A stretch of 64,000 nt of DNA from Bacillota bacterium (lineage in GTDB: Bacteria; Bacillota; Clostridia; Peptostreptococcales; Anaerovoracaceae). Both the position numbers and the translations under genes were made by a program. A model generated the notes under the pieces. It was not told the DNA's origin. It saw nothing but the letters and a program-made list of their open reading frames with translations, and did no database searches. Below are positions 13,552-58,935 of the stretch, in pieces (the stretch's first letter is position 1; every line of letters starts with the position of its first letter). The stretch spans positions 1-64,000 of the forward strand of contig JAFUCA010000037.1 of assembly GCA_017459895.1 (NCBI GenBank). The letters run 5' to 3'.

Positions 13552-14748
13552 ATGAGAATCCGGTTCAGTTTATTATACACATTCGTTTTTATGGGCTTCG
13601 GCGTGATGGCGACCCTGATCGGTGCACATCTGGATGAGATCGGCTTCACCGGAGATCAGATCGGGATTGTGACAGCCTCGGGGACCTTTGTGGCGATGTT
13701 CGCCGTTCCGTTCTGGGGCCATCGGTATACGTCCATTTCCCGTCCCCGGAGCCGGTATGTGCTGGTGGCGGGGATATTTGCCGCGGCGGCGGCTGTGGCG
13801 ATGATCCTGCCGCAGGTCCGCTCCTTTCTCTGGTTTCTGCCCATATTCATCGTGCTCTATGTGTTTCAGTCTCCATCCTCGTCTCTGATGGACTCCCTTG
13901 TGATCGACGCAAAGCAGGAGTTCGGATCGGTGCGTACCTTCGGCGCTCTGGGGTTTGCGGTTTCCTGCTTCGGTGCGGCATTTCTGGCAGACCGCATCGG
14001 TACTTCGGTGATCTTTCCGATCTATGCCGGATGTTTTCTGATGAGCGCAGGGCTCGTGTGGGCGATGCGCAGAGGCGCGGAGGTTCCTGCAAAGGCTGGA
14101 CTACCCGGGACCGATCCGGCGGCTGGCACAAAGACTGGCGGCGCGACCGCGGCCTCCGGCCGGCAGATGGCCCGGCAGCTTCTGGGCAGCCGTGCCTATG
14201 TGCTCATCGTCCTGTGCGCCTTCTTTATCAACGGGACGGACAATGCCAACAACACGTTCTTTAATTTCCTTTACCTGGATGGGGGCGGGACGCTGTCCGG
14301 GGTCGGGATCGCCTTCCTTCTCATGGCGGGAAGCGAAGCTCCCTTCATGGCAGCGTCCATGTGGCTCTGCCGAAAGTTCGGCCAGGACCGGGTCCTGCTG
14401 GTGGCGATGATCTTCTCAATCATCCGGTTCGGTCTGTTCGCCCTGGGTCTTCCGGCGCCGGTTCTGATCGCGCTGTTTCCGCTGCAGGGACTGGTCAACG
14501 GGATCACCCTGGTGGAATACGTGAAATACGTGGCCCGCGTCATCCCCCGGGAGCTTTCCGGCATCGGCATCGCCATTTATTATGCCGTCGGGTCCAGCCT
14601 CAGCACCATCGTCTGCCAGCTGATCGGAGGACACCTGCTGGATCAGGCGCTGTTTTCCCTGTCCGGTCCCCAGAGCGTGTACCTGTTCTTCGCCGTGTTC
14701 AATATCGCAGGCGTTCTCATCTTCTGGTTCGGCTGCCGCCGCAGTTAG
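13552..14748 (+). CDS. MFS transporter
   Basis: 398 residues with about 12 membrane helices and the layout of the MFS_1-like/PPP group of major facilitator transporters. The substrate is unknown. There is no ribosome-binding site before ATG 13552; in-frame codons upstream reach a TAG at once, and the next candidate starts lie inside the first helix, so a leaderless mRNA is likely. The central loop (about residues 178-200: AKAGLPGTDPAAGTKTGG) carries an exact copy of the dispersed 12-base word at 14088-14099. Confidence 0.85.
   Translation: MRIRFSLLYTFVFMGFGVMATLIGAHLDEIGFTGDQIGIVTASGTFVAMFAVPFWGHRYTSISRPRSRYVLVAGIFAAAAAVAMILPQVRSFLWFLPIFIVLYVFQSPSSSLMDSLVIDAKQEFGSVRTFGALGFAVSCFGAAFLADRIGTSVIFPIYAGCFLMSAGLVWAMRRGAEVPAKAGLPGTDPAAGTKTGGATAASGRQMARQLLGSRAYVLIVLCAFFINGTDNANNTFFNFLYLDGGGTLSGVGIAFLLMAGSEAPFMAASMWLCRKFGQDRVLLVAMIFSIIRFGLFALGLPAPVLIALFPLQGLVNGITLVEYVKYVARVIPRELSGIGIAIYYAVGSSLSTIVCQLIGGHLLDQALFSLSGPQSVYLFFAVFNIAGVLIFWFGCRRS
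14088..14099 (+). repeat. Dispersed word TGCAAAGGCTGG
   Basis: Exact 12-base copy inside the MFS gene, read as (P)AKAG in the cytoplasmic central loop. Confidence 0.8.
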
Positions 14749-15063
14749 GCTGGCAGGAGAACAGCGGCAATGTCAGGAATTGTACATAACTGGTGGTTTC
14801 AGCTCTGGATTTACAAAAAATCAGGCAAAAATTGTACATAAGCTTCTCTTGAGATGAATTAATACAAAAATAATTACAATAATATGGTAGGAAAACTAAT
14901 ATTTACCAATTATTGGCGCTAATAAGACACTTTAAGGCTCTTCAAGTCGATGTTTTTGTAAATCCTCATTCGAAAAGACCATTAGGTACAATTTTCGAAT
15001 TGGATTTTGTACAATTCGCATGTGAAACTCAGATTATGTACAAAATCGCAAGGAGCGGGACAG
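14749..15063. other. AT-rich gene-free region with TGTACA repeats
   Basis: No convincing gene. It contains AATTGTACATAA twice as an exact direct repeat (14778-14789 and 14830-14841), then GGTACAAT near 14987, TTGTACAA near 15008 and ATGTACAA near 15037. A TTG-initiated frame (14913-15167) has no start signal and no recognisable similarity. The repeats may be operator sites or the remains of a mobile or degraded element. Confidence 0.5.
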
Positions 15064-15090
15064 GAAAAAAGCTGCGCCCGGGAGCGCAGC
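15064..15090 (-). terminator. Terminator of the hisD-side operon
   Basis: On the minus strand GCTGCGC, a short loop and GCGCAGC are followed by six T's (15065-15070 on the plus strand are A's). It lies 74 bases beyond the hisD stop. Confidence 0.85.
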
Positions 15091-15163
15091 CTGTATCAGG
15101 TCTCAGATTACCGCCGGTCTTAGCGCCAGTGGCTTCAGCATCAATAGCCTCAGCACCGCCGAC

Positions 15164-16423
15164 CTAGAACCGCTTCTCAGCGGCGATGGCGTGTCCCATC
15201 AGACCTTCGCCTTTGGCCATGCGGTTTACCAGCGGCGCAATGGCGGCGGATGCCTCCGGGGTCATGCGCTGGTTGGTACAGGTCTTCAGGAAGGTGCCCA
15301 CCCAGACTCCGCCGGTGTAGCGGGCCGCCTTGACGGTGGGCAGGGTGTGATTGGTTCCGGATGCATAGTCGCCGAAAACTTCAGCCGTGTTGCCGCCGAT
15401 GAAGAGGGAACCGTAGTTGACCAGCTCGTCCAGGATCCGGTCCGGATCGGCGATGTTGACTTCCAGGTGCTCCGGCGCGTAGTCATTGCACACGCGGACG
15501 GCTTCCGCCAGATCATCCACCACGACGACCTCCCCGTAGTCCTCCCAGCTGCGGCGGGCGATACCCGCGGTCTCCAGCGTTTCCAGCTCCGCTTCCACCG
15601 CGGCAATGACAGCCTTTGCAAGAGACTCATCCGTCGCCAGAAGATATCCCTTCGCGTTGGGGTCGTGCTCGCACTGGGCCAGAAGGTCGGCGGCCAGAAC
15701 GTCGGGGCGCGCCGTTTCATCAGCGATGATCAGAACCTCGCTGGGACCGGCGATAAAATCGATGCCCACCTGGCCGTAGCACTGGCGCTTGGCTTCGGCG
15801 ACAAACTGATTGCCGGGGCCGACGATGACATCCACCGGCCGGATCTGCTCCGTCCCATAGGAAAAGGCTGCGATGGCCTGGGCTCCGCCGACGGCGTAGA
15901 TCTCATCCGCGCCGGCAAGATCCATGGCGACCAGCGTTTTGTAGTGGATGCTCCCGGTGCCGTGAACCACCGGCGCCGCAGCGCAGACCCGGCCGACACC
16001 GGCGACCCTGGCGGGAGTGATCAGCATCAGAGCTGTCGAGAACAGGGGATAACTTCCGCCGGGAACGTAGCAGCAGCAGGACTGGACCGGGATGATCCGG
16101 TGTCCGAGAAAGATTCCCGGCTGCGGGCTGAAGTCCCGGATCTCCGTCATGGACTGCCGCTGGGCCTTCGCGAAGGCCTCAATATTGGCCCGGGCGGCCT
16201 TCAGATCCTCGAGATCCGCCGGATCCATCTGCGCGTAAGCCGCGTCGATTTCCTCCCGGCTGACCTGAAAGGCGCCGCGGACGAATCCGTCGAAGCGCTC
16301 GCTGTATTCCCGGAGGGCTTCGTCGCCGTTCTGGCAGACGTTGTCAATGATGTCGGAAACGGTGTTCCGCAGATTGCGGCGGTCCTCCGCGGTACGTTCT
16401 TTTGCTTTCTTGATGATCTTCAT
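15164..16423 (-). CDS. hisD: Histidinol dehydrogenase family protein
   Basis: 419 residues, full length for HisD. The zinc and catalytic residues of the family are seen: LLAQCEHD (Gln and His ligands), YAPEHLEV (catalytic Glu-His), FGDYASGTNHTLPT (Asp ligand) and a C-terminal GHA. HisD oxidises L-histidinol to histidine using NAD+. No other his gene is in view; it follows radA by 18 bases, probably at the end of a four-gene operon with a two-component system. Orphan HisD homologues can oxidise other alcohols (for example sulfopropanediol), so the true substrate is uncertain. A one-mismatch copy of the dispersed word lies at 15609-15620. Confidence 0.85.
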   Translation of the reverse strand: MKIIKKAKERTAEDRRNLRNTVSDIIDNVCQNGDEALREYSERFDGFVRGAFQVSREEIDAAYAQMDPADLEDLKAARANIEAFAKAQRQSMTEIRDFSPQPGIFLGHRIIPVQSCCCYVPGGSYPLFSTALMLITPARVAGVGRVCAAAPVVHGTGSIHYKTLVAMDLAGADEIYAVGGAQAIAAFSYGTEQIRPVDVIVGPGNQFVAEAKRQCYGQVGIDFIAGPSEVLIIADETARPDVLAADLLAQCEHDPNAKGYLLATDESLAKAVIAAVEAELETLETAGIARRSWEDYGEVVVVDDLAEAVRVCNDYAPEHLEVNIADPDRILDELVNYGSLFIGGNTAEVFGDYASGTNHTLPTVKAARYTGGVWVGTFLKTCTNQRMTPEASAAIAPLVNRMAKGEGLMGHAIAAEKRF

Positions 16424-16441
16424 GGTTTGCCTTTCTGCAGA

Positions 16442-17848
16442 TCACAGCAGTGATCTGACTTCCTTGATATTGCGCACGCCGGCGATGCGAATGCCGGTTT
16501 CGTTCTTTCTTAAGCGTTCGGCGTTCCGGATCGGGAGCACGACCCGGGCGAACCCCAGACGCTCCGCCTCCCGGACGATCTTCTCCGCGTTCTGAATGGA
16601 CCGCAGATCTCCCGTCAGACCGATCTCACCCAGGACCAGGGTCTTGCTGTCCAGGGGCTTTCCCAGCAGGGAAGAGATCACGGCCATCGCGACGGCCAGA
16701 TCGGTATAGGTCCCTTCCGGACGGAGGCCGCCGACGATATTGACGTAAACGTCCTGATCCGCCAGCCGCAGCCCCATTTTTTTCTCCAGGACGGCGAGGA
16801 TCATGTTGAGCCGAGCGTTGTCCACTCCCAGCGCAGTCCTGCGGGCAAAGCCCACGCTGCAGGGTGAGGTCAGAGCCTGCACCTCCAGGATCAGGGGCCG
16901 GGTGCCCTCGTAGACAGCCGTGGCCACCGCGCCTTCATTTTCCCGGTCCATCTCCTCCATCAGGACCCCGGACAGATTCTCGATCTCCATCAGACCTTCC
17001 TGCGCCATCTCGAAGGCGCCGATCTCGCTGGTGGTGCCGAACCGGTTCTTCTGGGCGCGCAGGATCCGCATCTCGTGGCTGCGGTCGCCGGTGAAGCTGA
17101 GCACGCAGTCCACCATGTGCTCCACGATCCGCGGGCCGGCAAGATCGCCGCTCTTGGTCACGTGGGCGACGATGAATACGGGGATGCCGTCGGTTTTGCC
17201 GATCCGCATCAGCTCATTGCCGCAGGTCCGGACCTGAGAGACGCTGCCCGGCGCCGATTCCAGCTGGGCCGTGTACATGGTCTGGATGGAGTCGATGATC
17301 AGAAACACCGGTTTCAGGCTCTGGCACACGGCGCTGATGTTCTCCATGTTGGTTTCGGACAGGATGAAGAGCTGCTCCGACAGTTCCCCGCAGACCCGGT
17401 CCGCCCGCATCTTGATCTGCTCCTCGGATTCTTCTCCGGACACATAGAGCACCGTCCCCTGGGAGCGCGCGATATGGGATGCCGCCTGAATGATGATGGT
17501 GGATTTACCGATGCCCGGCTCGCCGGAGATCAGGGTCAGGGATCCGGGAACCAGTCCTCCCCCCAGCACCCGGTTCAGCTCGCCGATGCCGGTGTCGATC
17601 CGCTGCGCCTCTCCGGAGCGGATCTCCGACAGCTTCGCCGGCCGGCCGGCATGATCGGGCAGGCCGATGCCGGATGCCGGACCGCTGCGGCTGCCGGACG
17701 TGCGGCGGCGCGGGTCTTCCGCGGAGACGGGGACGATCTTCTCTTCGACCATGGAATTCCACGCGCCGCAGATGCACTGGCCCATCCATTTGGAACTTTC
17801 ATATCCGCATTCCTGACAGACATATACGGTTTTCGCTTTTTTCGCCAT
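16442..17848 (-). CDS. radA: DNA repair protein RadA
   Basis: 468 residues with all RadA parts: an N-terminal four-cysteine zinc finger (CQECG...CICG), Walker A (GEPGIGKST), the RadA-specific KNRFG motif and a C-terminal Lon-like domain. RadA is a RecA-like branch-migration helicase for recombination intermediates, important in natural transformation of several Firmicutes. It starts two bases after the histidine kinase stop, so it shares that operon. Confidence 0.96.
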   Translation of the reverse strand: MAKKAKTVYVCQECGYESSKWMGQCICGAWNSMVEEKIVPVSAEDPRRRTSGSRSGPASGIGLPDHAGRPAKLSEIRSGEAQRIDTGIGELNRVLGGGLVPGSLTLISGEPGIGKSTIIIQAASHIARSQGTVLYVSGEESEEQIKMRADRVCGELSEQLFILSETNMENISAVCQSLKPVFLIIDSIQTMYTAQLESAPGSVSQVRTCGNELMRIGKTDGIPVFIVAHVTKSGDLAGPRIVEHMVDCVLSFTGDRSHEMRILRAQKNRFGTTSEIGAFEMAQEGLMEIENLSGVLMEEMDRENEGAVATAVYEGTRPLILEVQALTSPCSVGFARRTALGVDNARLNMILAVLEKKMGLRLADQDVYVNIVGGLRPEGTYTDLAVAMAVISSLLGKPLDSKTLVLGEIGLTGDLRSIQNAEKIVREAERLGFARVVLPIRNAERLRKNETGIRIAGVRNIKEVRSLL

Positions 17849-17850
17849 AA

Positions 17851-20620: not shown

Positions 20621-20621
20621 C

Positions 20622-20632
20622 GCAAAGGCTGG
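20622..20632 (+). repeat. Dispersed word GCAAAGGCTGG, intergenic
   Basis: An 11-base match two bases after the carD stop, in the short gap before yacL. Confidence 0.75.
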
Positions 20633-21810: not shown

Positions 21811-22962
21811 ATGTATCATGGCAAACGCGTTGCGGTCATTATCGCGGCAGCGGGGCAGGGCACCAGAGTCGGCGCATCTGTGCCGAAACAGTATCTGAAG
21901 ATCGGCGGGCAGCCGGTGATCATTAAAGCCATGAAGGTTTTTGATCATATGGAGGCGGTCGATCATATCTTCGTCGTTGCCGGAGAGGACTATGTGCATT
22001 ACTGCAGGGGACTGATCGATCAGCACGGGTTTGAGAAAATGGAATCCGTGGTGGCAGGAGGCGCGCAGCGTCAGGACTCGGTCTACAATGCTCTGCAGGA
22101 GATGAACCGCCGCAAGCCCGGCGTCGAGTATGTGCTGATCCACGATGCGGCAAGGCCGTTCATCAGCGAAGAGGTCGTGCTCAATGTGCTGCAGGCGACG
22201 GAAGAGAGCGGCGCGGCGGTAGCCTGTGTCGCCATGACCAGCAGCGTCCGCCGGATGGGCAGCGGAGATGAAACGAGCGAAAGCGTGGACCGCAGCGAAT
22301 ACTATACCGTGCAGACGCCTCAGGGATTCCGCAAGTCGCTGCTGATCGATGCCTACGAGAAGGCCTATGATGACAGCTTTTTCGGTACGGACGACGCTGC
22401 GGTGGTAGAGCACGCGGGCGGACAGATCGCCATGGTGGACGGAGAGTATCAGAATATCAAGATCACAACAAAAGAGGACCTTCCTATGGAAAATCGCGTT
22501 GGAACCGGATTTGATGTACATGCATTGACCGAGGGCAGGAAACTGATCCTTGGCGGTGTGGATATTCCCTATGAGCGGGGGCTCGCGGGTCACTCCGATG
22601 CGGATGTCCTGACCCATGCGGTGATGGACGCGCTTCTGGGCGCAGCGGGACTGGGGGACATCGGCATGCACTTCCCGGATTCCGATCCGGCCTATGAGGG
22701 GATCAGCAGTCTCCAGCTTTTGCAGGAGGTGAAGCAAAAGCTGGAGGAAGCGTTCTATGAGATCGGCAACATCGATGTGACCCTGATCGCACAGCGGCCG
22801 AAGATCCGCCCCTTCGTCGATGAGATGAGGAAGAACCTTTCGGAGGTGCTCGAAATCGACGTCAGCCGGATCAACATCAAGGGCACGACCACCGAAAGGC
22901 TGGGGTTTGCCGGAAGAGAAGAAGGCATTGCCTGTGAGGCAGTCGCTTCTATATACAGATAA
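21811..22962 (+). CDS. ispDF: Bifunctional IspD/IspF isoprenoid enzyme
   Basis: 383 residues made of two enzymes of the MEP isoprenoid pathway. Residues 1-~225 are IspD (2-C-methylerythritol 4-phosphate cytidylyltransferase; AAAGQGTRVGASVPKQYL). Residues ~228-383 are IspF (2,4-cyclodiphosphate synthase; GFDVHAL, LAGHSDADVLTHA, GDIGMHFPD). In many Firmicutes these are adjacent separate genes; here they are fused in one frame. Product: MEcPP for IPP/DMAPP synthesis. The IspF part contains a perfect 13-base inverted repeat related to the dispersed word. Confidence 0.95.
   Translation: MYHGKRVAVIIAAAGQGTRVGASVPKQYLKIGGQPVIIKAMKVFDHMEAVDHIFVVAGEDYVHYCRGLIDQHGFEKMESVVAGGAQRQDSVYNALQEMNRRKPGVEYVLIHDAARPFISEEVVLNVLQATEESGAAVACVAMTSSVRRMGSGDETSESVDRSEYYTVQTPQGFRKSLLIDAYEKAYDDSFFGTDDAAVVEHAGGQIAMVDGEYQNIKITTKEDLPMENRVGTGFDVHALTEGRKLILGGVDIPYERGLAGHSDADVLTHAVMDALLGAAGLGDIGMHFPDSDPAYEGISSLQLLQEVKQKLEEAFYEIGNIDVTLIAQRPKIRPFVDEMRKNLSEVLEIDVSRINIKGTTTERLGFAGREEGIACEAVASIYR
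22711..22746 (+). repeat. Inverted pair of the dispersed-word variant inside ispDF
   Basis: CTCCAGCTTTTGC (22711-22723) and its exact complement GCAAAAGCTGGAG (22734-22746) are separated by ten bases. Each arm is the C-to-T variant of the dispersed word. Confidence 0.6.
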
Positions 22963-26958: not shown

Positions 26959-27305
26959 CTGAAACCGGCGGTACGAAACGAACGTAAAATTCAGCAATTT
27001 TGACGATGACGGAACGAAACGCCGCATTTCTTTCGCTGGTTCGATCCATATGCTCTGTCCCGGTCCAATCGAACTCACAAAATACAAATAATCGGGACAA
27101 ATTCCATTCGCTGATGTTTGAAATCGAGGATTTTTCCCAAAGGATCCTAAGATATACGAGTTTTCGATCCACACGCATCAAAAACGCCCATATTGTCGTT
27201 GCTTTTGGACGGAGTCAGGCAAGCCTTTGCATCTCACAGGCGATGTGTGCGATCTGTGAACAGCAGCCGTTTGTGAATAATTAACAAAAATCATTAAAAA
27301 ACTTG
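26959..27305. other. Gene-free spacer before the T-box promoter
   Basis: About 350 bases without a supported gene; short frames lack start signals. A one-mismatch copy of the dispersed word (CAAGCCTTTGCA) is at 27220-27231. Otherwise I see nothing defined. Confidence 0.5.
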
Positions 27306-27659: not shown

Positions 27660-27728
27660 TCGGTAAGCGAACCAGACTTTGCAGAGACTCCAAAAAGAAG
27701 AAACTCTAATTAAGGAAGGAGTCAAACA

Positions 27729-29996: not shown

Positions 29997-32234
29997 ATGG
30001 ACTATCTGAGCAGACTTAATGACAAGCAGCGGCAGGCGGCGGTTTATACGGAAGGCCCCCTTCTGATCCTGGCAGGGGCCGGCAGCGGCAAGACCAGCAC
30101 GATGACCTGCCGGATCGCCTATCTGATCGAGGAGATGGGCGTCAGCCCGTACAATATTCTGGCAGTTACCTTCACCAACAAGGCGGCGAAGGAGATGAGG
30201 GACCGGGTGGAGAATCTGGTGGGATCCGATCTGAACATGTGGATCCTGACCTTTCATTCGGCGTGCCTTCGGATCCTGCGCAGCCACGCGGACGTACTGG
30301 GGTACGGCCGGGATTTTGCCGTCTATGATCCGGCGGATCAGAAGACGCTGGTCCGGAACATCTGCAAGGACCTGCAGATCGACACGAAGAAATTCTCACC
30401 GGCCTATTTTCTCGGCGTGATCAGCAGCTGCAAGGAGAAGCGGATCACCCCGCAGCAGTATCCCCGGGAGTATGGGACGGATTATCGCGAGCAGCTGATC
30501 CACAAGGTTTATACCGCCTATGAGCTTCAGCTGAAGAAGAACAATGCCATGGATTTCGACGATCTGCTGCTGAACGCGGTGCGGGTTCTGGAGCAGGATG
30601 AAGCGGTGCTGCTGAAATACCAGAACCGGTTCCGGTATATCATGGTGGACGAGTATCAGGATACCAACCAGATCCAGTACACCTTCGTACGGATGCTGGC
30701 GGAGGAGCACCGCAACATCTGCGTGGTCGGCGATGACGATCAGTGCATCTATCAGTGGCGGGGGGCGGATATCCGCAACATTCTGGAGTTCGAAAAGGAT
30801 TTTCCCGGAGCGAAGGTGGTCAAGCTGGAGCAGAACTACCGGTCCACGGGCAATATTCTGGAGGCGGCCCACAGCGTCATCCGTCATAACGCGGCCCGCA
30901 AGGCGAAGAAGCTGTGGACCGACGCGGCGGGCGGCAGCCGGATCACCTATTTCCGCGCCCAGGACGAGCGGGAGGAGGCTCACTACATCGCCAGCGAGAT
31001 CGGCCGCCTGACCTCCGGCAGCTATACACTGCAGGAAGGCCGCCGGGACGGGCGAAAGTACAGCGATTTCGCGATTCTCTACCGGACCAATGCCCAGTCC
31101 AGAACCTTTGAGGAAGCGCTCTCCCGCAGAGACATTCCCTACCGGGTGCTGGGAGGCCTGCGTTATTACGATCGGAAGGAAGTCAAGGATCTCATGTGCT
31201 ACATGCGGCTGGTGCAGAACCGGGCCGATGATCTGGCACTGGTCCGGATCGTCAACGAACCGAAACGGGGCATCGGCGCGAAGACCCTGGAGAAGCTGCA
31301 GACACTGGCACGGGTCCGGGGGGAGAGTCTGTTCGATACCCTCTGCGATGAGGCGGTTGTGTCGTCTCTTTCTGCAAAGGCTGGAGCCGGCATCCGGGAA
31401 CTGACGGAGCTGATCGGAAGCTTTGCCGCAGAAAAAGAAAATATGCGGGTCTCGGATATCTACGACGGACTGCTGGTCCGCTCCGGATACATGAAGATGC
31501 TGGAGGATCAGAACACCATCGAAAGCGAGAGCCGGATCGAAAACCTGATGGAATTCAAATCCGTCATTTACGATTACGAAGAAGAGGACCAGAACATTTC
31601 GCTGGCCGATTTTATGGAGCGGATCGCTCTGCTGGCGGATGTGGATAATCACGATGCCGGAGAGAACGCGGTAGTTCTGATGACGCTGCACAGCGCCAAG
31701 GGGCTGGAGTTCCCCTTTGTCTTCATGCCGGGCATGGAGGACGGACTGTTCCCCGGATGGCGCGCCTTTGACCGCCCGGACGGGCTGGAGGAGGAGCGGC
31801 GGCTCTGTTACGTCGGTATCACCCGGGCGAAGGAGCGGCTCTGGATGACCAGCGCCCAGACCAGGACGCTGTACGGCAAGACCGATTTCACCCGGGAATC
31901 CCAGTTCATGCGGGAGATCGATCCGAAGCTGCTGGACGGCGACGGGGTCTATCAGCAGAAGCGGCCGCAGGGCGGAGCGTTCCGGGACGGCGCGGGAAGT
32001 CCCGCCGCGGCAAGACCCTTTGATCAGCTGAAGTACGCCCGGCAGAGGACCAAGCAGAACGCGGCTGCCATGCAGCAGTCCGCGGGAGACACCTTCGCTG
32101 CGGGGGACCGGGTCTCCCATCCGAAGTTCGGTGCGGGAGAGGTGCTGAGCTGTGACGGGAAGATCATTCGGGTCCGGTTCGGCGATGGAGAGAAGAAACT
32201 GGCGATCGGATTTGCGCCGCTGAAGAAACTATGA
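29997..32234 (+). CDS. pcrA: ATP-dependent DNA helicase PcrA/UvrD
   Basis: 745 residues, SF1A helicase with the Q motif at the N-terminus, Walker A GAGSGKTSTM, DEYQDTNQIQ (motif II), QWRGADI (motif III) and VTRAK-like GITRAKERLW (motif VI). The C-terminal Tudor-like domain (SHPKFGAGEV) is typical of PcrA. It acts in repair, plasmid rolling-circle replication and removal of RecA or stalled polymerases. The ATGA overlap with ligA mirrors the common pcrA-ligA operon. It contains an exact dispersed word (31373-31384). Confidence 0.96.
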   Translation: MDYLSRLNDKQRQAAVYTEGPLLILAGAGSGKTSTMTCRIAYLIEEMGVSPYNILAVTFTNKAAKEMRDRVENLVGSDLNMWILTFHSACLRILRSHADVLGYGRDFAVYDPADQKTLVRNICKDLQIDTKKFSPAYFLGVISSCKEKRITPQQYPREYGTDYREQLIHKVYTAYELQLKKNNAMDFDDLLLNAVRVLEQDEAVLLKYQNRFRYIMVDEYQDTNQIQYTFVRMLAEEHRNICVVGDDDQCIYQWRGADIRNILEFEKDFPGAKVVKLEQNYRSTGNILEAAHSVIRHNAARKAKKLWTDAAGGSRITYFRAQDEREEAHYIASEIGRLTSGSYTLQEGRRDGRKYSDFAILYRTNAQSRTFEEALSRRDIPYRVLGGLRYYDRKEVKDLMCYMRLVQNRADDLALVRIVNEPKRGIGAKTLEKLQTLARVRGESLFDTLCDEAVVSSLSAKAGAGIRELTELIGSFAAEKENMRVSDIYDGLLVRSGYMKMLEDQNTIESESRIENLMEFKSVIYDYEEEDQNISLADFMERIALLADVDNHDAGENAVVLMTLHSAKGLEFPFVFMPGMEDGLFPGWRAFDRPDGLEEERRLCYVGITRAKERLWMTSAQTRTLYGKTDFTRESQFMREIDPKLLDGDGVYQQKRPQGGAFRDGAGSPAAARPFDQLKYARQRTKQNAAAMQQSAGDTFAAGDRVSHPKFGAGEVLSCDGKIIRVRFGDGEKKLAIGFAPLKKL
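31373..31384 (+). repeat. Dispersed word TGCAAAGGCTGG
   Basis: Exact 12-base copy in pcrA, read as SAKAG. Confidence 0.8.
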
Positions 32235-34192
32235 ACGAAAAAAGAGAACGGATCAAAGAACTGGTCGCCCTGCTGAATCAGGCGTCCAGAGCATACTATC
32301 AGGCAGACGGGGAGATCATGTCCAACCGGGAATACGACCGGCTCTACGATGAGCTGGTTCGTCTGGAGGAGGAGACGGGGATCGTTCTGTCCGCCAGTCC
32401 CACGGTCAATGTGGGCTACGAGGTGGTCAGCAGCCTGCCGAAGAAGCGGCATCCGTCGCCGATGCTGTCTCTGGACAAGACCAAGGACCCGGCAGCGCTG
32501 GCAGCGTGGCTGGGGGATCAGGAAGGCCTGCTTTCCTGGAAGCTGGACGGACTGACCATCGTGCTGACTTATACCGACGGGCAGCTGTCCGATGCGGTGA
32601 CCCGGGGGGACGGCATCACCGGAGAGGTCATTACCGGCAACGCGAAGGTGTTCGACAATGTGCCGCTGACCATTCCGGCGAAAGAGGAGACGGTCGTCCG
32701 GGGAGAAGCGGTGATCAGCTATCCGCAGTTTGAACAGATCAACGCCTCCATCGAGGATGCGGAGGCGAGGTACAAGAACCCGCGCAATCTCTGCAGCGGT
32801 ACGGTGCGGCAGCTGGACAGCAGCGTGACGGCCAGCCGTCATGTCCTGTTCTACGCCTTTTCCCTGGCTTCCGGCGGCGGTGATCTGAAGCGGCGGCGGG
32901 ATCAGATGGACTGGCTGCGCGCCCAGGGGTTTGAGACCGTCGAAAACATACCGGTCACGAAGGATACCGTCGAAGAGGCGGTGGCATCCTTCGCGGAGCG
33001 GATCGGAGAATTCGAGATCCCTTCCGACGGACTGGTGCTGACCTTTGATGACATCGCCTACGGCAGATCGCTGGGATCGACCGCGAAATTTCCGCGGGAT
33101 TCCATTGCCTTCAAATGGCAGGATGAGCTGGCGGAGACGACGCTGCGGGAGATTCTGTGGAATCCCTCCCGAACCGGGCTGATCAATCCCATCGCGGTAT
33201 TCGATCCGGTGGAGCTGGAGGGAACTACGGTCAGCCGGGCCTCAGTTCACAACCTGAGCATCGTTGGTCAGCTCCAGCTGAACCCCGGGGACCGGATCCA
33301 GGTCTACAAGGCCAACATGATCATTCCCCAGATCGAGAGGAATCTCTCTGCAAAGGCTGGACGGCCGGCTTGTGAGCCGCCGGGGACATGCCCGGCCTGC
33401 GGACAGGAGACCGTCGTCCGGGATGAGAACGGGATCCAGACCCTGCGCTGCCCCAATCCGGACTGCCCGGCGAAGAAGATCAAGTCCTTCACCCATTTTG
33501 TCGGGCGGACCGCCATGAACATCGAAGGATTGTCCGAGATGACGCTGGAAAAGCTGATCGGCATTGGCGCGCTGCATGAGCCGGCGGATATCTTCCGGCT
33601 GGACCGGTTTCGGGATACCATCATCGGGATGGAAGGCTTCGGAGAGAAGTCCTTCGATAATCTGATCGCGGCCTGCAGGAATGCGGCGCACACGACTCCG
33701 GACCGCCTGCTGAACAGTCTGGGGATCCCCGGCATCGGTACGGCAAACGCCCAGATGATCTGCCGTGCAGCGGCAAATCAGTGGGACAGGATCTCTCACC
33801 TGACCGAGGAAGAGCTCCTGGCGATCGACGGGATCGGAGAGGTGCTGGCCGGGGATTTCACCGCCTTCTTCGCAGAGGAAGGCCATCAGAGGATGCTGGA
33901 GAATCTGCTGAAGCAGCTGACGCTGGATGAGAGCTTTGAAGAGAGGACAGACCAGCCTTTGCAGGGGAAGACCTTCGTCATTACCGGGAGCCTGAACACC
34001 TTCGAAAACCGGGACGCGGCGAAGGAACGGATCCAGCAGCTGGGCGGCAAGGTGGCCGGATCCGTCAGCAAAAAAACCGACTACCTGGTCAACAACGACA
34101 TCGGTTCCGGTTCCTCCAAGAACAAAAAGGCCAAGGAACTGGGGATACCGATCATAACAGAGGAAGAATTACTGGAGATGATCGAGCAATGA
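32231..34192 (+). CDS. ligA: NAD+-dependent DNA ligase LigA
   Basis: 653 residues, full length. The adenylated lysine is K104 in SWKLDG; then OB fold, a four-cysteine zinc finger (CPACG...CPNPDC), helix-hairpin-helix repeats and a C-terminal BRCT domain. It seals nicks in replication and repair. It overlaps pcrA upstream and the AIR-synthase-like gene downstream by four bases each. It carries two exact copies of the dispersed word in opposite orientations, before the zinc finger and just before BRCT, both between-domain positions. Confidence 0.97.
   Translation: MNEKRERIKELVALLNQASRAYYQADGEIMSNREYDRLYDELVRLEEETGIVLSASPTVNVGYEVVSSLPKKRHPSPMLSLDKTKDPAALAAWLGDQEGLLSWKLDGLTIVLTYTDGQLSDAVTRGDGITGEVITGNAKVFDNVPLTIPAKEETVVRGEAVISYPQFEQINASIEDAEARYKNPRNLCSGTVRQLDSSVTASRHVLFYAFSLASGGGDLKRRRDQMDWLRAQGFETVENIPVTKDTVEEAVASFAERIGEFEIPSDGLVLTFDDIAYGRSLGSTAKFPRDSIAFKWQDELAETTLREILWNPSRTGLINPIAVFDPVELEGTTVSRASVHNLSIVGQLQLNPGDRIQVYKANMIIPQIERNLSAKAGRPACEPPGTCPACGQETVVRDENGIQTLRCPNPDCPAKKIKSFTHFVGRTAMNIEGLSEMTLEKLIGIGALHEPADIFRLDRFRDTIIGMEGFGEKSFDNLIAACRNAAHTTPDRLLNSLGIPGIGTANAQMICRAAANQWDRISHLTEEELLAIDGIGEVLAGDFTAFFAEEGHQRMLENLLKQLTLDESFEERTDQPLQGKTFVITGSLNTFENRDAAKERIQQLGGKVAGSVSKKTDYLVNNDIGSGSSKNKKAKELGIPIITEEELLEMIEQ
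33349..33360 (+). repeat. Dispersed word TGCAAAGGCTGG
   Basis: Exact copy in ligA before the zinc finger, read as SAKAG. Confidence 0.8.
33952..33963 (-). repeat. Dispersed word CCAGCCTTTGCA
   Basis: Exact copy in ligA in the opposite orientation, read as DQPLQ just before the BRCT domain. Confidence 0.8.
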
Positions 34193-36769: not shown

Positions 36770-38470
36770 ATGTACACTGCGCTTTATCGTGCCTACCGTC
36801 CGGAGGTCTTCGAGCAGCTTCTCGGGCAGGAGCACATCACCAGAATCCTGAAAAATCAAATCGCTTCCGGAACGACAAGCCACGCCTATCTTTTTTGCGG
36901 GACCCGGGGAACCGGTAAGACGACGACGGCCAGGCTGTTGGCCAAAGGGCTGAACTGTCTTTCGGAAGGGGAACGTCCCTGCGGCGAGTGCGCGGCCTGT
37001 CAGGCCATCAAAAATGGCACCTTTCTGGATGTGGTGGAGATCGATGCGGCCTCCAACCGCGGCATCGATGATATCCGTCAGCTGAGGGACAGCGTCAACT
37101 ACCCGCCGGCTGCGGGAAGGAACAAGGTCTACATCATCGATGAGGTTCACATGTTGTCAACCGAGGCCTTCAACGCGCTGCTGAAAACTCTGGAGGAGCC
37201 GCCGGAATACGTCACGTTTATCCTGGCGACCACCGAACCGAGGAAGCTGCCGGCGACCATCCTTTCCAGATGTCTGCGGTTGGATTTCAAACGGATCCCG
37301 GAGACGGTCCTGATCGATGGGATGAAACGGATCTGTGCGGAGATCGGCATCGATGTCACGGACGCGGCGCTGCGGATCATTGCGGCCAATGCCGACGGTT
37401 CCGTGCGGGACGGACTCAGCATTCTGGACCAGTGCATTTCCGGAGGAGACCGGAGGGTGGACGCGCCTCAGGTACTGGATTTCCTGGGAGCATCCGGGGA
37501 AGAGGTCTTCATCCGTCTGACGGATCTGGTGTCAAAGCGAAGGACGGCGGAGGCTCTGGAATACCTGGCTCAGGTTCTGGCGGACGGCAAGGACGTCAGG
37601 CAGCTGATCCGCGACTGGATCAGCCATTACCGGAATCTGATGATGACGAAATTCATAAGGGATCCTCAGGCGGTCATCAACCTGTCGGTGGAGAACATCG
37701 ACCGGATCCGGCAGCAGTGCTCCGTCATGGAGCTGGAGGACATCAACCGGGGCATCATGGAGCTGTCAAAGACCGCCGATGCTGCCCGCTGGTCCAGCCA
37801 GCCGAGGATTCTGCTGGAGGTCTGCATCGTTCGTCTCTGTCAGGGAGGGGGAGCATCACCTTCCCGGGCGGCGGAGCGGCAGGCAGTCCGGCCTGCTCCA
37901 AAGGCTGCAGCGCCTGCGCCAAAGCAGGCAGCGCCGGCAGAAACGACAGCGCCGCCTGCGGTAAAACCGGCAGCGCCAGCGCCAGCGCCGCCTGTGACGG
38001 AAGCGGCGGTCTCTGTGCCGAGAGCGGAGAAGCAGGAGCCGGACGCAGAGGATGCGGGAGCATCCCTTGATACACTGGACGCACTGATCGCGGCTGCAAT
38101 GCCGCAGGGTGAACAAAGTCCGGACCAGCCTTTGCAGGAACCGGCGGCGGAGCACGGGGATCTGATGGCTCTCTGGGACGAGGTGTTCGCGGATGGGGAG
38201 CACGCGAAGGGGAGCATCTATCTGATCCGCAGCAACAGCATGCTGACTGACATGGATGAGGGAACTTTTACTGTGACCGTCCGAAATGATATGACCCGGC
38301 GCCATACGGAGCGCAGCCGCGATCTGCTGGAGGATCTGATGGAGGCGCGGACCGGGAAGCGGCGGATCATGCGGGTCGTGACAGACGACCATCCCGAAGG
38401 GGAAATATCCGTCGAAGAGGCGGCAGCCAAGGCCTCAGATGTTCTGGGGGTCAAGGTCGGAATCGAATAA
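36770..38470 (+). CDS. dnaX: DNA polymerase III subunit gamma/tau
   Basis: 566 residues. Clamp-loader AAA+ domain with Walker A GTRGTGKTTTAR, a zinc knuckle (CGECAACQ), sensor-1 and SRC motifs (LSRCLRLDF), then domain III, an Ala/Pro-rich disordered stretch (about residues 365-445) and a C-terminal domain. It loads the sliding clamp and links the polymerase. No A-rich slippery site for a gamma form was seen. An exact dispersed word (38125-38136) lies in the disordered linker. Confidence 0.96.
   Translation: MYTALYRAYRPEVFEQLLGQEHITRILKNQIASGTTSHAYLFCGTRGTGKTTTARLLAKGLNCLSEGERPCGECAACQAIKNGTFLDVVEIDAASNRGIDDIRQLRDSVNYPPAAGRNKVYIIDEVHMLSTEAFNALLKTLEEPPEYVTFILATTEPRKLPATILSRCLRLDFKRIPETVLIDGMKRICAEIGIDVTDAALRIIAANADGSVRDGLSILDQCISGGDRRVDAPQVLDFLGASGEEVFIRLTDLVSKRRTAEALEYLAQVLADGKDVRQLIRDWISHYRNLMMTKFIRDPQAVINLSVENIDRIRQQCSVMELEDINRGIMELSKTADAARWSSQPRILLEVCIVRLCQGGGASPSRAAERQAVRPAPKAAAPAPKQAAPAETTAPPAVKPAAPAPAPPVTEAAVSVPRAEKQEPDAEDAGASLDTLDALIAAAMPQGEQSPDQPLQEPAAEHGDLMALWDEVFADGEHAKGSIYLIRSNSMLTDMDEGTFTVTVRNDMTRRHTERSRDLLEDLMEARTGKRRIMRVVTDDHPEGEISVEEAAAKASDVLGVKVGIE
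38125..38136 (-). repeat. Dispersed word CCAGCCTTTGCA
   Basis: Exact copy in dnaX, read as DQPLQ in the low-complexity linker. Confidence 0.8.
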
Positions 38471-39508: not shown

Positions 39509-39528
39509 CGGCAGGCCAGCCTTTGTAT
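39509..39528 (-). repeat. Dispersed word within a 20-base repeat, downstream of recR
   Basis: CCAGCCTTTG at 39516-39525. The whole 20-base context (39509-39528) is repeated exactly at 58100-58119 inside dprA, although one site is intergenic and the other coding. Confidence 0.75.
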
Positions 39529-44000: not shown

Positions 44001-44040
44001 ACAAAGTGGGGGCCAGCCTTTGCGCGGCCCTTATTTTGTT
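44001..44040 (+). terminator. Terminator after APC permease 2, containing the dispersed word
   Basis: GGGCC (44010-44014) pairs with GGCCC (44026-44030), flanked by ACAAA and TTATTTTGT. CCAGCCTTTGC (44013-44023) forms part of the stem and loop. Confidence 0.55.
44013..44024 (-). repeat. Dispersed word CCAGCCTTTGCG in terminator
   Basis: 11 of 12 bases match the consensus word, within the hairpin after APC permease 2. Confidence 0.75.
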
Positions 44041-46981: not shown

Positions 46982-47503
46982 ATGTCATATATTGCAAAGT
47001 CACCTTGGGTCGTACATTATGACGGTTCGAGCTGTAACGGATGCGACATCGAAGTTCTGGCATGTCTCACCCCTATGTACGATGTAGAAAGATTCGGTAT
47101 TATCAATACCGGTAACCCGAAGCACGCGGACGTATTTCTCGTCACCGGCTCCGTCAACGAGCAGAACAAGAATGTCGTCAAGCAGATCTACGATCAGATG
47201 CCGGAACCGAAGGTCGTTGTGGCCGTTGGTATCTGCGCGTGCACCGGCGGCGTGTTCAGAGATGCCTATAACATCCTGGGCGGCGTTGATTCGGTCATTC
47301 CGGTCGACTGTTATGTCCCGGGATGCGCGGCCAGACCGGAAGCCATCATTGATGGTGTCGTCAAAGGTCTGGGCGTTCTCGCACAGAAGCGCGAAGCGAT
47401 GCTGAGAGGCGAGCTTCCTGCAAAGGCTGCCGAGGCTCCGGCAGAGGAGCCGGAGGCTGAAGCTGCAGCTGCAGAAGTAACGGAAGAAGGAGGGGAAGAG
47501 TAA
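46982..47503 (+). CDS. echC: EchC-like [NiFe]-hydrogenase small subunit
   Basis: 173 residues, NuoB family. Cys18 and Cys21 (SSCNGCDIEV), a Cys in GICACTGG (about 85/87) and Cys115 (VPGCAARPE) bind the proximal [4Fe-4S] cluster. The family domain ends near residue 140; an Ala/Glu-rich acidic tail of about 30 residues is added. A one-mismatch copy of the dispersed word (47419-47430) lies at the start of that tail. Confidence 0.93.
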   Translation: MSYIAKSPWVVHYDGSSCNGCDIEVLACLTPMYDVERFGIINTGNPKHADVFLVTGSVNEQNKNVVKQIYDQMPEPKVVVAVGICACTGGVFRDAYNILGGVDSVIPVDCYVPGCAARPEAIIDGVVKGLGVLAQKREAMLRGELPAKAAEAPAEEPEAEAAAAEVTEEGGEE

Positions 47504-51567: not shown

Positions 51568-51579
51568 AAGCGCGCCTCC

Positions 51580-53040: not shown

Positions 53041-53044
53041 GGTA

Positions 53045-54418: not shown

Positions 54419-54453
54419 CTCAATACCTTCCCAAACATACTCAAACTTAGTTC

Positions 54454-54482
54454 ATTGTACGACTTCCCGCCGTTGAAATCAA
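54454..54482 (-). promoter_or_regulatory. Promoter of the trk operon
   Basis: On the minus strand TTGATT (54477-54482), a 17-base spacer, TACAAT (54454-54459), 36 bases before the trkA start. Confidence 0.65.
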
Positions 54483-54517
54483 GTACCTGTGTTTTGTTAT
54501 TTGCAGTAGCATTCGGA

Positions 54518-54529
54518 CCAGCTTTTGCA
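54518..54529 (-). repeat. Variant dispersed word CCAGCTTTTGCA, intergenic
   Basis: One mismatch from the consensus, between the trk promoter and the MBL gene start. Confidence 0.55.
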
Positions 54530-54556
54530 GTATACTGATAGCATTGGAGGTTCACG

Positions 54557-55153
54557 ATGCAGATCAAACGTTTTATCGGCGGAATCCTGGAGGCCAACGG
54601 GTATGTGATCAGCGATGAGGCCAGCGGCAGCTGCTGGATCATCGATCCGGGCTACCGGCCGAAGGTCTTTATTCAATATGTCGCAAAGGCTGGCCTTACG
54701 CCGGAGGGGATCCTGCTGACCCATCATCACAGCGACCATACGGGAGCGGCGGAGCAGGTCCGAAGGGCGCTGGACTGTCCGGTCTATATGCACCGGGCGG
54801 ACTGTGATGCCTACGGAGAATGGGTGGACGTCTTCCTCGAGGGAGGAGAGTCGCTGCAGCTTGGGGGCGAACGGTTTCAGGTGCTGCACACCCCCGGACA
54901 TACGAAGGGATGCGTTTGTTTCCTGTTTCGCAAAAGCCGGGCCTGCTTTACGGGAGATTTCGTCTTTAACGTGGATCTGGGACGGACCGATCTGCAGGAC
55001 GGAAGCGAGGAGGAAATGCGGCGGAGCATTTTGACCGTGGCGGACCGGTGGGCCGGGGACATTACGATCTATCCCGGGCACGGAGACTCCTGCACCATGC
55101 GGACCGTGCGCCGGATCAATCAGGAATTCATCGATATTACAGCGAAGAGGTAG
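54557..55153 (+). CDS. MBL-fold metallo-hydrolase
   Basis: 198 residues, glyoxalase-II-like: HHHSDHTGA, TPGHTKGC, FTGDFVF and PGHGDSC are the metal ligands for a dinuclear site. Small hydrolases of this type cleave thioesters or related bonds; substrate unknown. GGAGG precedes the ATG. It carries an 11-of-12 dispersed word (54682-54693) read as VAKAG. Confidence 0.88.
   Translation: MQIKRFIGGILEANGYVISDEASGSCWIIDPGYRPKVFIQYVAKAGLTPEGILLTHHHSDHTGAAEQVRRALDCPVYMHRADCDAYGEWVDVFLEGGESLQLGGERFQVLHTPGHTKGCVCFLFRKSRACFTGDFVFNVDLGRTDLQDGSEEEMRRSILTVADRWAGDITIYPGHGDSCTMRTVRRINQEFIDITAKR
54682..54693 (+). repeat. Dispersed word CGCAAAGGCTGG
   Basis: 11 of 12 match in the MBL hydrolase gene, read as VAKAG. 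Confidence 0.75.
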
Positions 55154-55161
55154 GACAGAAT

Positions 55162-55986: not shown

Positions 55987-56015
55987 GGGAGCATCGAAGG
56001 AACCGGGGAAACATC

Positions 56016-56056
56016 ATACCGATGCACAAGCGAATCTGTGTGTCGGTATTTTTATT
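56016..56056 (+). terminator. Terminator after HAD phosphatase gene
   Basis: ATACCGATGCACA (56016-56028) pairs with TGTGTGTCGGTAT (56037-56049) with two imperfect positions, then TTTTTATTT. Confidence 0.78.
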
Positions 56057-56077
56057 TGGAATAAGCAATATATTTAC

Positions 56078-56106
56078 TTGACAGGAAATTAATGGTAATT
56101 TATAAT
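56078..56106 (+). promoter_or_regulatory. Consensus promoter of the yraN-yifB-dprA operon
   Basis: Perfect TTGACA (56078-56083), a 17-base spacer and perfect TATAAT (56101-56106). Confidence 0.85.
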
Positions 56107-56155
56107 GAATGTCAGAAAATGTAATTATAAGTAAATAAAAGGAAATGCGTGTGCT

Positions 56156-56494
56156 ATGGACAGAAAGAAACTGGGAGAGATCGGAGAGAACATGGCGGCG
56201 GAGCTGCTGCGGGGCAAGGGGTACGACATCCTGCGGCGAAACTACCGCTGCCGGGAGGGGGAAATCGACATTATCGCGGAACGGTACGGGGAACTCTGCT
56301 TCGTGGAGGTGAAGACCCGGCAGGGCTTCGATTTCGGGCGGCCCTGTGAGTCGATCAACGATGAGAAGAAGCGGCATATCCGGCGCACGGCAGACCGGTA
56401 CATCGAGGAGATGAAGCGGAGAGGGTACTTTCCCAGGAGGGTCGATTTTCAGGTGATCGAGATCGTGACCGAGCACCATGTCAACGCGTTCTGA
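56156..56494 (+). CDS. YraN/UPF0102 family nuclease-like protein
   Basis: 112 residues, a restriction-endonuclease-like fold: GEIDII and FVEVKTR carry the acidic/Lys active-site pattern. Probably Holliday-junction-resolvase-like, exact role unknown. First gene of a DNA-processing cluster with yifB, dprA and topA. The ribosome-binding site is weak. Confidence 0.9.
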   Translation: MDRKKLGEIGENMAAELLRGKGYDILRRNYRCREGEIDIIAERYGELCFVEVKTRQGFDFGRPCESINDEKKRHIRRTADRYIEEMKRRGYFPRRVDFQVIEIVTEHHVNAF

Positions 56495-56508
56495 AAGGAG
56501 ACAGGCAG

Positions 56509-58044
56509 ATGCTGATGAAGATACAGACAGCGACTCTGACCGGAGTCGAGGGATATCCTGTGACGGTGGAAACGGATCTGCGAAGGGGTATGCCCGATTT
56601 CAGCGTGGTAGGCCTTGCGGACGCCACGATCCGGGAATCCTGCAAACGGCTGCGGCCGGCCATTATGAACAGCGGATATCGTTTTCCGAACGAGAGGATC
56701 ACCGTGAATCTGGTGCCCGCCGACCGGCCGAAGGAAGGGAGCCACTTTGATCTGCCCATCGCCGTCAGCATCATCCTGCTGATGGAAGGGATTGAGGCGC
56801 CGGAGGATACCGCTTTGCTGGGAGAGGTCTCGCTGGACGGAACGGTCAATCCGGTGCAGGGCGTGCTGCCCCTGGTGATCAGTCTGCGGGCTGCCGGCCT
56901 GCACACGATCCTGCTGCCGGCGGAGAATGCCGAGGAGGCCGGAGTGCTGCGGGATGTCCGGATCCTGCCGGTACGGACGATCCGTCAGGCAGTGGATCAC
57001 ATCCGCGGGGAGGAGCGGATCCCGGAATACCGCAGTTCCCGGACGCACATCCGGGAACAATACCGGGAGGATTTCTCTCAGGTGATCGGACAGGAGGTCA
57101 CGAAGCGGGCGATGATGATCGGGGCGGCGGGAAGCCACGGTATGCTGATGATGGGAAGTCCCGGCTGCGGCAAGACGATGCTGGCGAAGCGCCTGCCGAC
57201 GATCCTGCCGCCGCTGACCTACGAGGAACGGCTGGAGATCATGGGGATCTACAGCGTCGCGGGACTGCTGGGACCGGGAATGCCGGTGATCACGGAGCGG
57301 CCGTTTCGCAGTCCGCATCATTCCATTACGCTGACGGGTATGGTGGGCGGCGGAGCAAAGGCGAAGCCCGGGGAGCTGTCGCTGGCGCACCGGGGTGTCC
57401 TGTTTCTGGATGAGCTGGGGGAATTCGACAGCCGCGTCATCGACGCGCTGCGGCAGCCGGTGGAAGACGGGTTCGTGCGCATCGTGCGCCGCCAGGAAGA
57501 GGTCGTCTTCCCGGCGGGCGTCATGGTGGTCGTCGCATCCAACCCATGCAAATGCGGATATCTGTGGGATGAGAAGAAGCTGTGCACCTGTACGCCGGGA
57601 CAGCTGGCAGGTCATCGCAGAAGACTGGCCGGTCCGTTTTCCGATCGCATCGACATGCACATCAAGATGATGCCGGTGGAGGGAAAAGATCTGTTCCGTC
57701 CGGAGCAGGCGAAGCGGGGGATGGGATCGCAGCAGATGCGGGATCAGGTCTGCGCTGCCATGCAGCGGCAGGCACAGCGGTACCGGGAAAGCCGGTACCG
57801 GAATAACGGTACGCTGGATGAAAACGGCATCCGAAAGTACTGCGTTCTGAGCGATGCGTGCCGCAGTCTGATGCAGGAGGCATTCACGAATCTGGATCTG
57901 ACGATGCGCGGATACCACAAGGTCCTGAAGATCGCCAGAACCATCGCGGATCTGGAGGGGGAGGACCGGATCCGGGAGGACCATCTGTCGGAGGCTTTGA
58001 TGTACCGGTTTGCGGAAGCTGATATTGGGAGCAGAAGGGAGTGA
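56509..58044 (+). CDS. YifB/ComM-family Mg-chelatase-like AAA+ ATPase
   Basis: 511 residues: N-terminal Lon-like domain (GMPDFSVVGLADATIRES), AAA+ core with Walker A GSPGCGKTMLAKRL and FLDELGEF, a cysteine segment (CKCGYLWDEKKLC) and a C-terminal lid. ComM orthologues are branch-migration helicases that help integrate incoming DNA in natural transformation. It lies directly before dprA, another transformation gene. Confidence 0.93.
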   Translation: MLMKIQTATLTGVEGYPVTVETDLRRGMPDFSVVGLADATIRESCKRLRPAIMNSGYRFPNERITVNLVPADRPKEGSHFDLPIAVSIILLMEGIEAPEDTALLGEVSLDGTVNPVQGVLPLVISLRAAGLHTILLPAENAEEAGVLRDVRILPVRTIRQAVDHIRGEERIPEYRSSRTHIREQYREDFSQVIGQEVTKRAMMIGAAGSHGMLMMGSPGCGKTMLAKRLPTILPPLTYEERLEIMGIYSVAGLLGPGMPVITERPFRSPHHSITLTGMVGGGAKAKPGELSLAHRGVLFLDELGEFDSRVIDALRQPVEDGFVRIVRRQEEVVFPAGVMVVVASNPCKCGYLWDEKKLCTCTPGQLAGHRRRLAGPFSDRIDMHIKMMPVEGKDLFRPEQAKRGMGSQQMRDQVCAAMQRQAQRYRESRYRNNGTLDENGIRKYCVLSDACRSLMQEAFTNLDLTMRGYHKVLKIARTIADLEGEDRIREDHLSEALMYRFAEADIGSRRE

Positions 58045-58047
58045 GGA

Positions 58048-58935
58048 ATGAACGCAGGAAATCATGAAGGACGGGAAGAGGGAAGAATTCAGGTGGTGTC
58101 GGCAGGCCAGCCTTTGTATCCGGCCCTGCTGAAGGAGATCAGAGACTATCCGAAAACCCTCTATTATATAGGACGCGGGGAGCTGCTGAAGGGACGCTGC
58201 GCTTCGGTCGTCGGTTCCAGAACGACGACGAGCTACGGGAGGAATACTGCCAGAGCGATCGCCTCGGCCCTTGCTTCCTGCGGGATCACGGTGGTGAGCG
58301 GGATGGCGGCGGGGATCGACAGCTGCGCTCACAGCGGAGCTTTGGATGCCGGGGGGAAGACCATTGCGGTGCTGGGAACCGGTGTGGATCTTTGCTATCC
58401 GAAGGACAATGCTGTCCTGAAGCAGTCCATCGAAGCGCGGGGACTGGTGCTGTCGGAATATCCCCCGGGAACCGGGGCGGCGCGCCATCATTTCCCCCAG
58501 CGAAACCGGATCATCAGCGGTCTGTCGGAAGTGACCTGCGTGGTACAGGCGCGTCTGCGAAGCGGCGCCCTGATCACAGCGGAACTGGCGGCGGATCAAG
58601 GCAGGGAGGTCCTGGCGGTGCCGGGTAACATCGACAGCCAGTATCATATGGGAACGAACCAGCTGATCCGGGAAGGCGTGCAGGCGGTCACCTCCGTCGA
58701 CGACGTGCTTAGCTTTATGGGGCTCTCCAGGGCTGAGGGAAGGCCGCCCGGGCGGCTGTCACAGACCGAGGAGCTCGTCTATCAGATGCTGCAGCAGAGA
58801 GGGGAAATGAGCGCCGAAGAGATCTGTCTCAGCCTTTCCCGTCCGCCCGGATATCTGATGCCGATCCTCTCATCATTGGAGCTGAAAGGACATATTACTT
58901 CTGCGGCAGGAAAATTTTTTCTTGCAAATCGTTAG
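58048..58935 (+). CDS. dprA: DNA-processing protein DprA
   Basis: 295 residues: Rossmann-like DprA core (VVGSRTTTSYGRNTARAIAS, VSGMAAGIDSCAH, FPQRNRIISGLSE, SGALITAELA) and a C-terminal winged helix. DprA protects incoming single strands and loads RecA during transformation. It carries the dispersed word at 58107-58116, read as GQPLY, in its N-terminal region. Starts three bases after yifB. Confidence 0.95.
   Translation: MNAGNHEGREEGRIQVVSAGQPLYPALLKEIRDYPKTLYYIGRGELLKGRCASVVGSRTTTSYGRNTARAIASALASCGITVVSGMAAGIDSCAHSGALDAGGKTIAVLGTGVDLCYPKDNAVLKQSIEARGLVLSEYPPGTGAARHHFPQRNRIISGLSEVTCVVQARLRSGALITAELAADQGREVLAVPGNIDSQYHMGTNQLIREGVQAVTSVDDVLSFMGLSRAEGRPPGRLSQTEELVYQMLQQRGEMSAEEICLSLSRPPGYLMPILSSLELKGHITSAAGKFFLANR
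58100..58119 (-). repeat. Dispersed word within a 20-base repeat, dprA
   Basis: Identical over 20 bases to the intergenic site 39509-39528 near recR; core CCAGCCTTTG at 58107-58116. Confidence 0.75.

Follow-up and report, generated by a model that had tools for sequence, protein, structure and literature searches.

The closest described systems, for which we draw on parts of the cited sources throughout, are the DNA-uptake words of Neisseriaceae and Pasteurellaceae, the only two families for which such words are named in the literature examined. The uptake sequence of Neisseriaceae (DUS) occurs in dialects that are read by the minor pilin ComP (PMC3630211, PMC3868556). For the Pasteurellaceae word (USS), the receptor is suspected to be a minor pilin, with ComN/PpdA predicted for this role (PMC12616744), and the choice between insertion and point mutation as the origin of the sites has been examined via alignment gaps (PMC1626085), as it is here. 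In the parts of the sources consulted, no sequence-specific receptor is reported for the ComG competence pseudopilus or the Tad/Flp pilus (PMC6370729, PMC12236230). Moreover, in the open-licence PubMed Central literature, as far as the text consulted extends, we found no account of uptake sequences from Clostridia or any other Firmicutes, and the preliminary description of the DNA studied here likewise knew of none in Firmicutes.

Here we analyse the 12-base word CCAGCCTTTGCA, which is dispersed over a window of 64 kb (the whole stretch of DNA under analysis) and over the genome from which this window comes (G000; 2.5 Mb in 55 contigs). Judging from sequence comparisons, CCAGCCTTTGCA is the spelling used by this species of a dispersed word that most species of the genus carry, and we consider it probable that this word serves as a DNA-uptake (self-recognition) tag.

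Abundance and placement of the word

Counted on both strands, the window holds 5 exact and 14 one-mismatch copies of CCAGCCTTTGCA, 19 in all, against 0.42 expected from dinucleotide shuffles; the largest count among 100 shuffled windows was 2 at the same tolerance. The exact copies lie at 14088..14099 (minus strand, within the gene at 13552-14748), 31373..31384 (minus, within pcrA, 29997-32234), 33349..33360 (minus) and 33952..33963 (plus), both within ligA (32231-34192), and 38125..38136 (plus, within dnaX, 36770-38470). One-mismatch copies between called genes are found at 20621..20632 (minus) and, on the plus strand, at 27220..27231, 27672..27683 (where a relative, L032, carries an inverted pair at the aligned site), 44013..44024 and 54518..54529; others lie at 6693..6704, 15609..15620 and 22713..22724 (plus) and at 47419..47430 and 54682..54693 (minus). 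All five exact and all ten one-mismatch copies listed in the preliminary description were thus recovered at their positions, as were its two copies of CCAGCCTTTGTAT, at 39516..39527 (plus, between called genes) and 58107..58118 (plus, within dprA), each of which is also a one-mismatch copy, and our count adds two that it had overlooked, at 2496..2507 and 6877..6888 (both minus). With 11 copies on the plus strand and 8 on the minus strand, while the majority of gene calls are on the plus strand, the orientation is mixed despite a nearly uniform gene direction, as had been noted before. Genes of DNA maintenance (pcrA, ligA twice, dnaX) hold four of the five exact words of the window, and dprA holds a one-mismatch copy; this placement may be due to chance, given how many genes of this kind the window contains.

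Whether the excess extends beyond the window had been left to a genome-wide count, and the result is far over expectation: the source genome contains 401 exact copies (206 and 195 in the two orientations) and none of the reversed control word, and 1050 copies with up to one mismatch (649 of them with one) against 16 for the control. The word was further characterised in a sample of 482.8 kb, made up of the window, 20 further stretches and the stretch L190, in which genes were called with a home-made finder. This sample contains 85 exact copies and 207 with up to one mismatch, with 0 and 4, respectively, for the reversed control. The fixed octamer AGCCTTTG is preceded by CC (72% and 97%) and followed by C (75%) and A (63%); outside these approximately 12 positions there are only weak preferences, such as a G (54%) eight bases upstream of the octamer. 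The 10-mer CAGCCTTTGC occurs 172 times in the 483 kb, which extrapolates to approximately 890 copies per genome. As is directly seen from its sequence, CCAGCCTTTGCA is not a palindrome, and its spacing in the sample is near random (CV 0.95). Inspected as possible foreign islands, the two largest word-free gaps, of 11.6 kb on contig C6 and 9.3 kb on contig C10, show no obvious phage genes by eye; the former contains a gene of 2672 codons.

Of the 207 sampled copies, 80 run in the direction of the gene in which they lie (sense), 86 run against it (antisense), and 41 are intergenic. The 166 copies within genes occupy all six frames, and the intergenic share (19.8%) exceeds the 10.4% of the sequence that is intergenic. 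In coding DNA (433 kb), we observed 66 exact copies and 167 with up to one mismatch, whereas 40 synonymous-codon shuffles yielded means of 0.8 and 10.3, with largest values of 3 and 18; in intergenic DNA (51 kb), 19 and 41 copies stand against 0 and 0.2 in 40 simulations. Since the shuffles leave 0.8 of the 66 exact copies, codon use is excluded as the cause of the word, and an origin in coding or codon pairs was rejected. Truly codon-driven words of this genome, AGGAACTG and ACGGCAAG, lie mainly in one frame and on one strand. Similarly, a single conserved protein motif, which the preliminary description had named as an explanation that would overturn its reading, does not account for the copies: they occur in each of the six frames, and few of them survive the shuffling of synonymous codons. 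Its hint at an association with terminators did not hold: six pairs of copies lie within 50 bp of each other, five of them inverted, against 5.8 pairs expected from random spacing, and with no excess of pairs a terminator role was rejected.

Dialects and evolution of the sites

Across the 49 genomes of the genus set, the core of the word, GCCTTTGC (GC[C/T]TTTGC), reaches a density of at least 190/Mb in 34 and at most 126/Mb in 15, with a gap between the two groups (densities are based on rounded genome sizes). Among 147 other genomes sampled across the order, 24 of them from the same family, none reached 190/Mb, the highest value being approximately 152/Mb. The named relatives come mostly from animal guts (goat and others). 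Of the 25 genus genomes searched for the exact CCAGCCTTTGCA, 4 have it in abundance, the source genome included, and one-mismatch counts are high (468 to 1050) in five of the 49 genomes, namely G000, G011, G010, G057 and G001, with 6 to 109 in the other 44; the listed one-mismatch places of G007 are mostly CCTGCCTTTGCA.

De novo word counting in small samples gave a distinct spelling for several groups of species: CCAGCCTTTGC in the G000 clade, TTGCCTTTGC in G003 and G056, TGCCTTTGC in G007, TGCCTTTGCA in G017, G050 and G055, TGC[C/T]TTTGCA in G008, G014 and G044, TGCTTTTGCA in G004 and G063, and TAGCCTTTGCA in G051 (19 sites). A sharp dialect is not present in every species, since some word-bearing ones (G013 with G045, G018, G048 and G052) are loosely spelled, keeping the core with no one clear flank; the samples of G016 (20 kb) and of G049 with G002 (16 kb) were too small for a dialect call. 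Word-poor species may have words of their own, as their sampling was thin apart from G043 (140 kb) and the pooled subclades. One part of the word-poor clade (G022, G023 and G054) carries GCGCTTTGC, a near relative of the core, nine times in 186 kb; possibly, this is a weak or decaying word.

A LigA tree, built with a quick method, covers 46 of the 49 species, the other three having given no LigA match. It unites all 15 word-poor species in a single clade (SH-aLRT 99), so that the label changes state once, and the five with high one-mismatch counts in another (SH-aLRT 99). The fate of a single site can be followed in pcrA, where the word at 31373 is present, as such or respelled, at the aligned position in five relatives: G010 shares CCAGCCTTTGCA with the source genome, while G011 has CCAGCCTTTGCG, G057 CCTGCCTTTGCG, G003 CTTGCCTTTGCG and G060 GCGGCTTTTGCG. 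The spelling in G003 is the dialect found de novo in that species; in the more distant G008 and G020, the aligned site lacks the word.

Over 100 kb aligned with same-dialect relatives (78% identity), 22 of the 43 alignments of sites keep the 9-base centre CAGCCTTTG exactly, compared with a conserved share of 16.5% among other 9-mers (Fisher p=1.8e-7), and over 179 kb aligned with other-dialect relatives (71% identity), it is exact in 0 of 37 against a background of 9.5% (p=0.046); both p-values are optimistic because the alignments, counted site by relative such that one site may recur over several relatives and a few are possibly paralogous, are not all independent. Alignment gaps fall at one of the 43 sites in same-dialect relatives and at 7 of the 37 in the more distant, other-dialect ones. 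With the near-ungapped alignments and the information confined to about 12 positions, a mobile element or MITE was rejected; a recent mobile element was the other explanation that the preliminary description had set against its own reading. The site alignments therefore show that the word arises by substitution in place, is conserved above background within a dialect, and is respelled or absent between dialects.

Competence genes and further dispersed words

The window encodes DprA, the DNA-processing protein of natural transformation (58048..58935, plus strand; TIGR00732, 243.1 bits, cut-off 191.15). The adjoining gene encodes a YifB family AAA ATPase (56509..58044, plus strand; TIGR00368, 503.8 bits, cut-off 362.4), also named ComM. 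Elsewhere in the genome, comEC lies at C8:79351-80136 and comEA on contig C11. The components of an uptake machinery identified here are ComEA, ComEC, DprA and pilus-type ATPases. ComEC occurs in 40 and ComEA, over its cut-off, in 43 of the 49 genus genomes. The presence of this machinery does not discriminate between the two groups of species, since the word-poor ones carry ComEC (11 of 15) and ComEA (14 of 15) too. A PilT-type com locus has orthologues (at least 50% identity) in 20 of the 34 species that bear the word and in 7 of the 15 that are poor in it, with none found in the word-bearing G048, whose genome is 98% complete. Thus, none of ComEC, ComEA and the PilT orthologues tracks the word by presence, and each was rejected in this role.

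The com-like locus encodes PilC- and PilT-like proteins together with a DUF4860 protein whose modelled fold is minor-pilin-like. On contig C34 of the source genome (L190:7070-10891), it is a compact, pilus-like locus of a T2SSF protein, four small proteins including DUF4860, and a PilT-like ATPase; across several word-bearing relatives, the protein with DUF4860 evolves more rapidly than PilT, at about 26-30% identity as compared with 67-71%. In a tblastn search of the loci around PilT orthologues (about 2.6 to 4.2 kb), DUF4860 was found in 12 of 26 species, all of them word-bearing, and no match was obtained in seven other word-bearing species; given these seven, divergence or the shortness of the loci may explain the pattern. 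The candidates for a receptor are so far predicted pilin-like proteins only.

We propose that DNA with a cell's own spelling would be bound and taken in when the cell is competent. The word would be read by a DNA receptor on the cell surface, in all likelihood a minor pilin that belongs to a competence or Tad-type pilus. Because fragments with the word would enter and recombine more frequently than those lacking it, its copies would persist and multiply, and the dialect would be reset whenever the specificity of the receptor changed.

Other dispersed words were found in the family. The word ATGCTCCC (GGGAGCAT on the other strand) occurs 79 times in the sample of the source genome against 22.8 expected, and 341 times genome-wide. 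It is strand-biased, with 20 sense and 50 antisense copies in G000 and 7 sense and 24 antisense in G019, G024 and G042 together, and looks Chi- or KOPS-like. As a replacement word of a word-poor subclade it was rejected, because it is strand-biased and frequent in word-bearing species as well. In G007 (contig C5, L131-L137), GTTTCACGTGAAAC, which we take to be parS-like, was counted four times in 140 kb scanned on both strands, which corresponds to two places because it is a palindrome; possibly, these lie near the replication origin.

Ten genomes of sister genera were sampled at 21-40 kb each. In one of them (G082, L295-L296), GTTTTGAT occurs 19 times in 40 kb against 1.8 expected (8 sense, 7 antisense, 4 intergenic). 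This excess held genome-wide (800 copies in 1.9 Mb, or 421/Mb, with 147 for the reversed control, and none of the other 118 genomes searched exceeding 204/Mb); hence GTTTTGAT may be a second, unrelated word of the uptake type that arose independently in a sister genus. Weaker candidates from small samples are GGCTTTGC in the sister genus G065 (L291-L292; 10 copies against 0.7) and CTTTGATG in the sister genus G090 (L297-L298; 19 against 3.8).

Alternative readings and known systems

Could the word instead serve intracellular machinery (AddAB, FtsK or a relative of these) as a signal in recombination or segregation, like Chi, KOPS and similar words? Such words are also short, abundant and species-specific (for Chi: PMC3630211), and the genus does have a second word, ATGCTCCC, that is strand-biased. 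Moreover, when the core sites of 12 groups of word-bearing species are taken together, antisense sites (379) outnumber sense ones (266), with 78 intergenic; a Chi-type reading could draw chiefly on this result. We take this lean, in an attribution made without a test, to be caused by codon context, because the commonest antisense frame of the core reads GCA AAG GC on the coding strand; two of the 12 groups are individually skewed (p about 0.01), and sites of the G000-clade group are balanced (21 to 27). In the source genome, however, the word shows no polarity relative to genes (80:86), nor does the octamer AGCCTTTG (94 sense, 94 antisense) in the same analysis that shows ATGCTCCC skewed; the doubled intergenic share and the flanks that vary among species of one genus also speak against such a signal. 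We therefore regard it as unlikely, although it comes first in probability among the alternatives, and its poor fit had been pointed out in the preliminary description.

Ranking just behind it, and about as unlikely, is the reading that the word is bound by a protein that organises the chromosome, such as a nucleoid-associated or partition protein, with a specificity that varies between species. The dispersal in both orientations and the conservation over background would suit such a protein, but the spacing is near random, the word is non-palindromic, and the flank changes within the genus would need repeated shifts in the specificity of an intracellular protein. The HIP1 word of cyanobacteria, a palindromic octamer that is abundant and of unclear function, sets a precedent for a functionless or methylation-linked repeat that results from mutational or repair bias. 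The present word lacks that symmetry, and mutation bias does not readily yield a 12-base consensus with conservation above background, so we place this explanation third and consider it improbable. That most copies lie within genes would be expected of a coding artefact or protein motif; this origin, together with a short mobile element, we consider next to impossible in view of the six frames, the near-complete loss of copies on synonymous shuffling and the single gap among same-dialect site alignments.

The absent strand bias in the source genome, the species dialects and the conservation are, by comparison, what a DNA-uptake tag predicts. The original proposal of an uptake or genome tag is thus supported in part: the parts that stand are the genome-wide excess and the mixed orientation, to which dialects and conservation are added, and the part that falls is the link to terminators. 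Going further, we lean modestly to the view that Clostridia of one gut family evolved a dialect-based, self-recognising DNA uptake independently of Proteobacteria, with at least two unrelated words (GC[C/T]TTTGC and, in a sister genus, GTTTTGAT), with receptors on a minimal competence pilus, and with a barrier to gene exchange among gut species. If the word studied here is an uptake tag, it would extend uptake words from Neisseria and Haemophilus to Gram-positive bacteria, and genus-wide dialects in Clostridia would be an independent origin and a genomic sign of present or recent natural transformability. The many pairs of dialect and receptor would help to work out how pilins read DNA, and the dialect word would suggest a handle for genetic access to an isolated strain.

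Compared with the known systems, the Clostridia word differs from the DUS of Neisseriaceae in its sequence and its phylum, and its copies (401 exact 12-mers, or the extrapolated 10-mers) are fewer than the approximately 1900 of the meningococcus. No counterpart of ComP was found here. Unlike in both Neisseriaceae and Pasteurellaceae, inverted pairs are not in excess, including the terminator pairs that are common for USS. In the USS of H. influenzae, the consensus is unusually strong when set against the copies with a single mismatch (PMC1626085), whereas here the 401 exact copies stand against 649 with one mismatch. With Pasteurellaceae the system shares a dispersed self word, and with Gram-positive and Gram-variable bacteria that use the ComG pseudopilus or the Tad/Flp pilus it shares the encoded ComEA, ComEC, DprA and pilus-type ATPases. 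The likeness to the DUS of Neisseriaceae extends to a short, non-palindromic, many-copy word in coding and intergenic DNA, and to dialects that are built on a common core and congruent with phylogeny (PMC3630211, PMC3868556). In combination, the dispersed non-palindromic word, the absent polarity in the source genome, the origin by substitution, the maintenance of sites and the phylogenetic dialects match the DUS of Neisseriaceae (PMC3630211) better than any rival.
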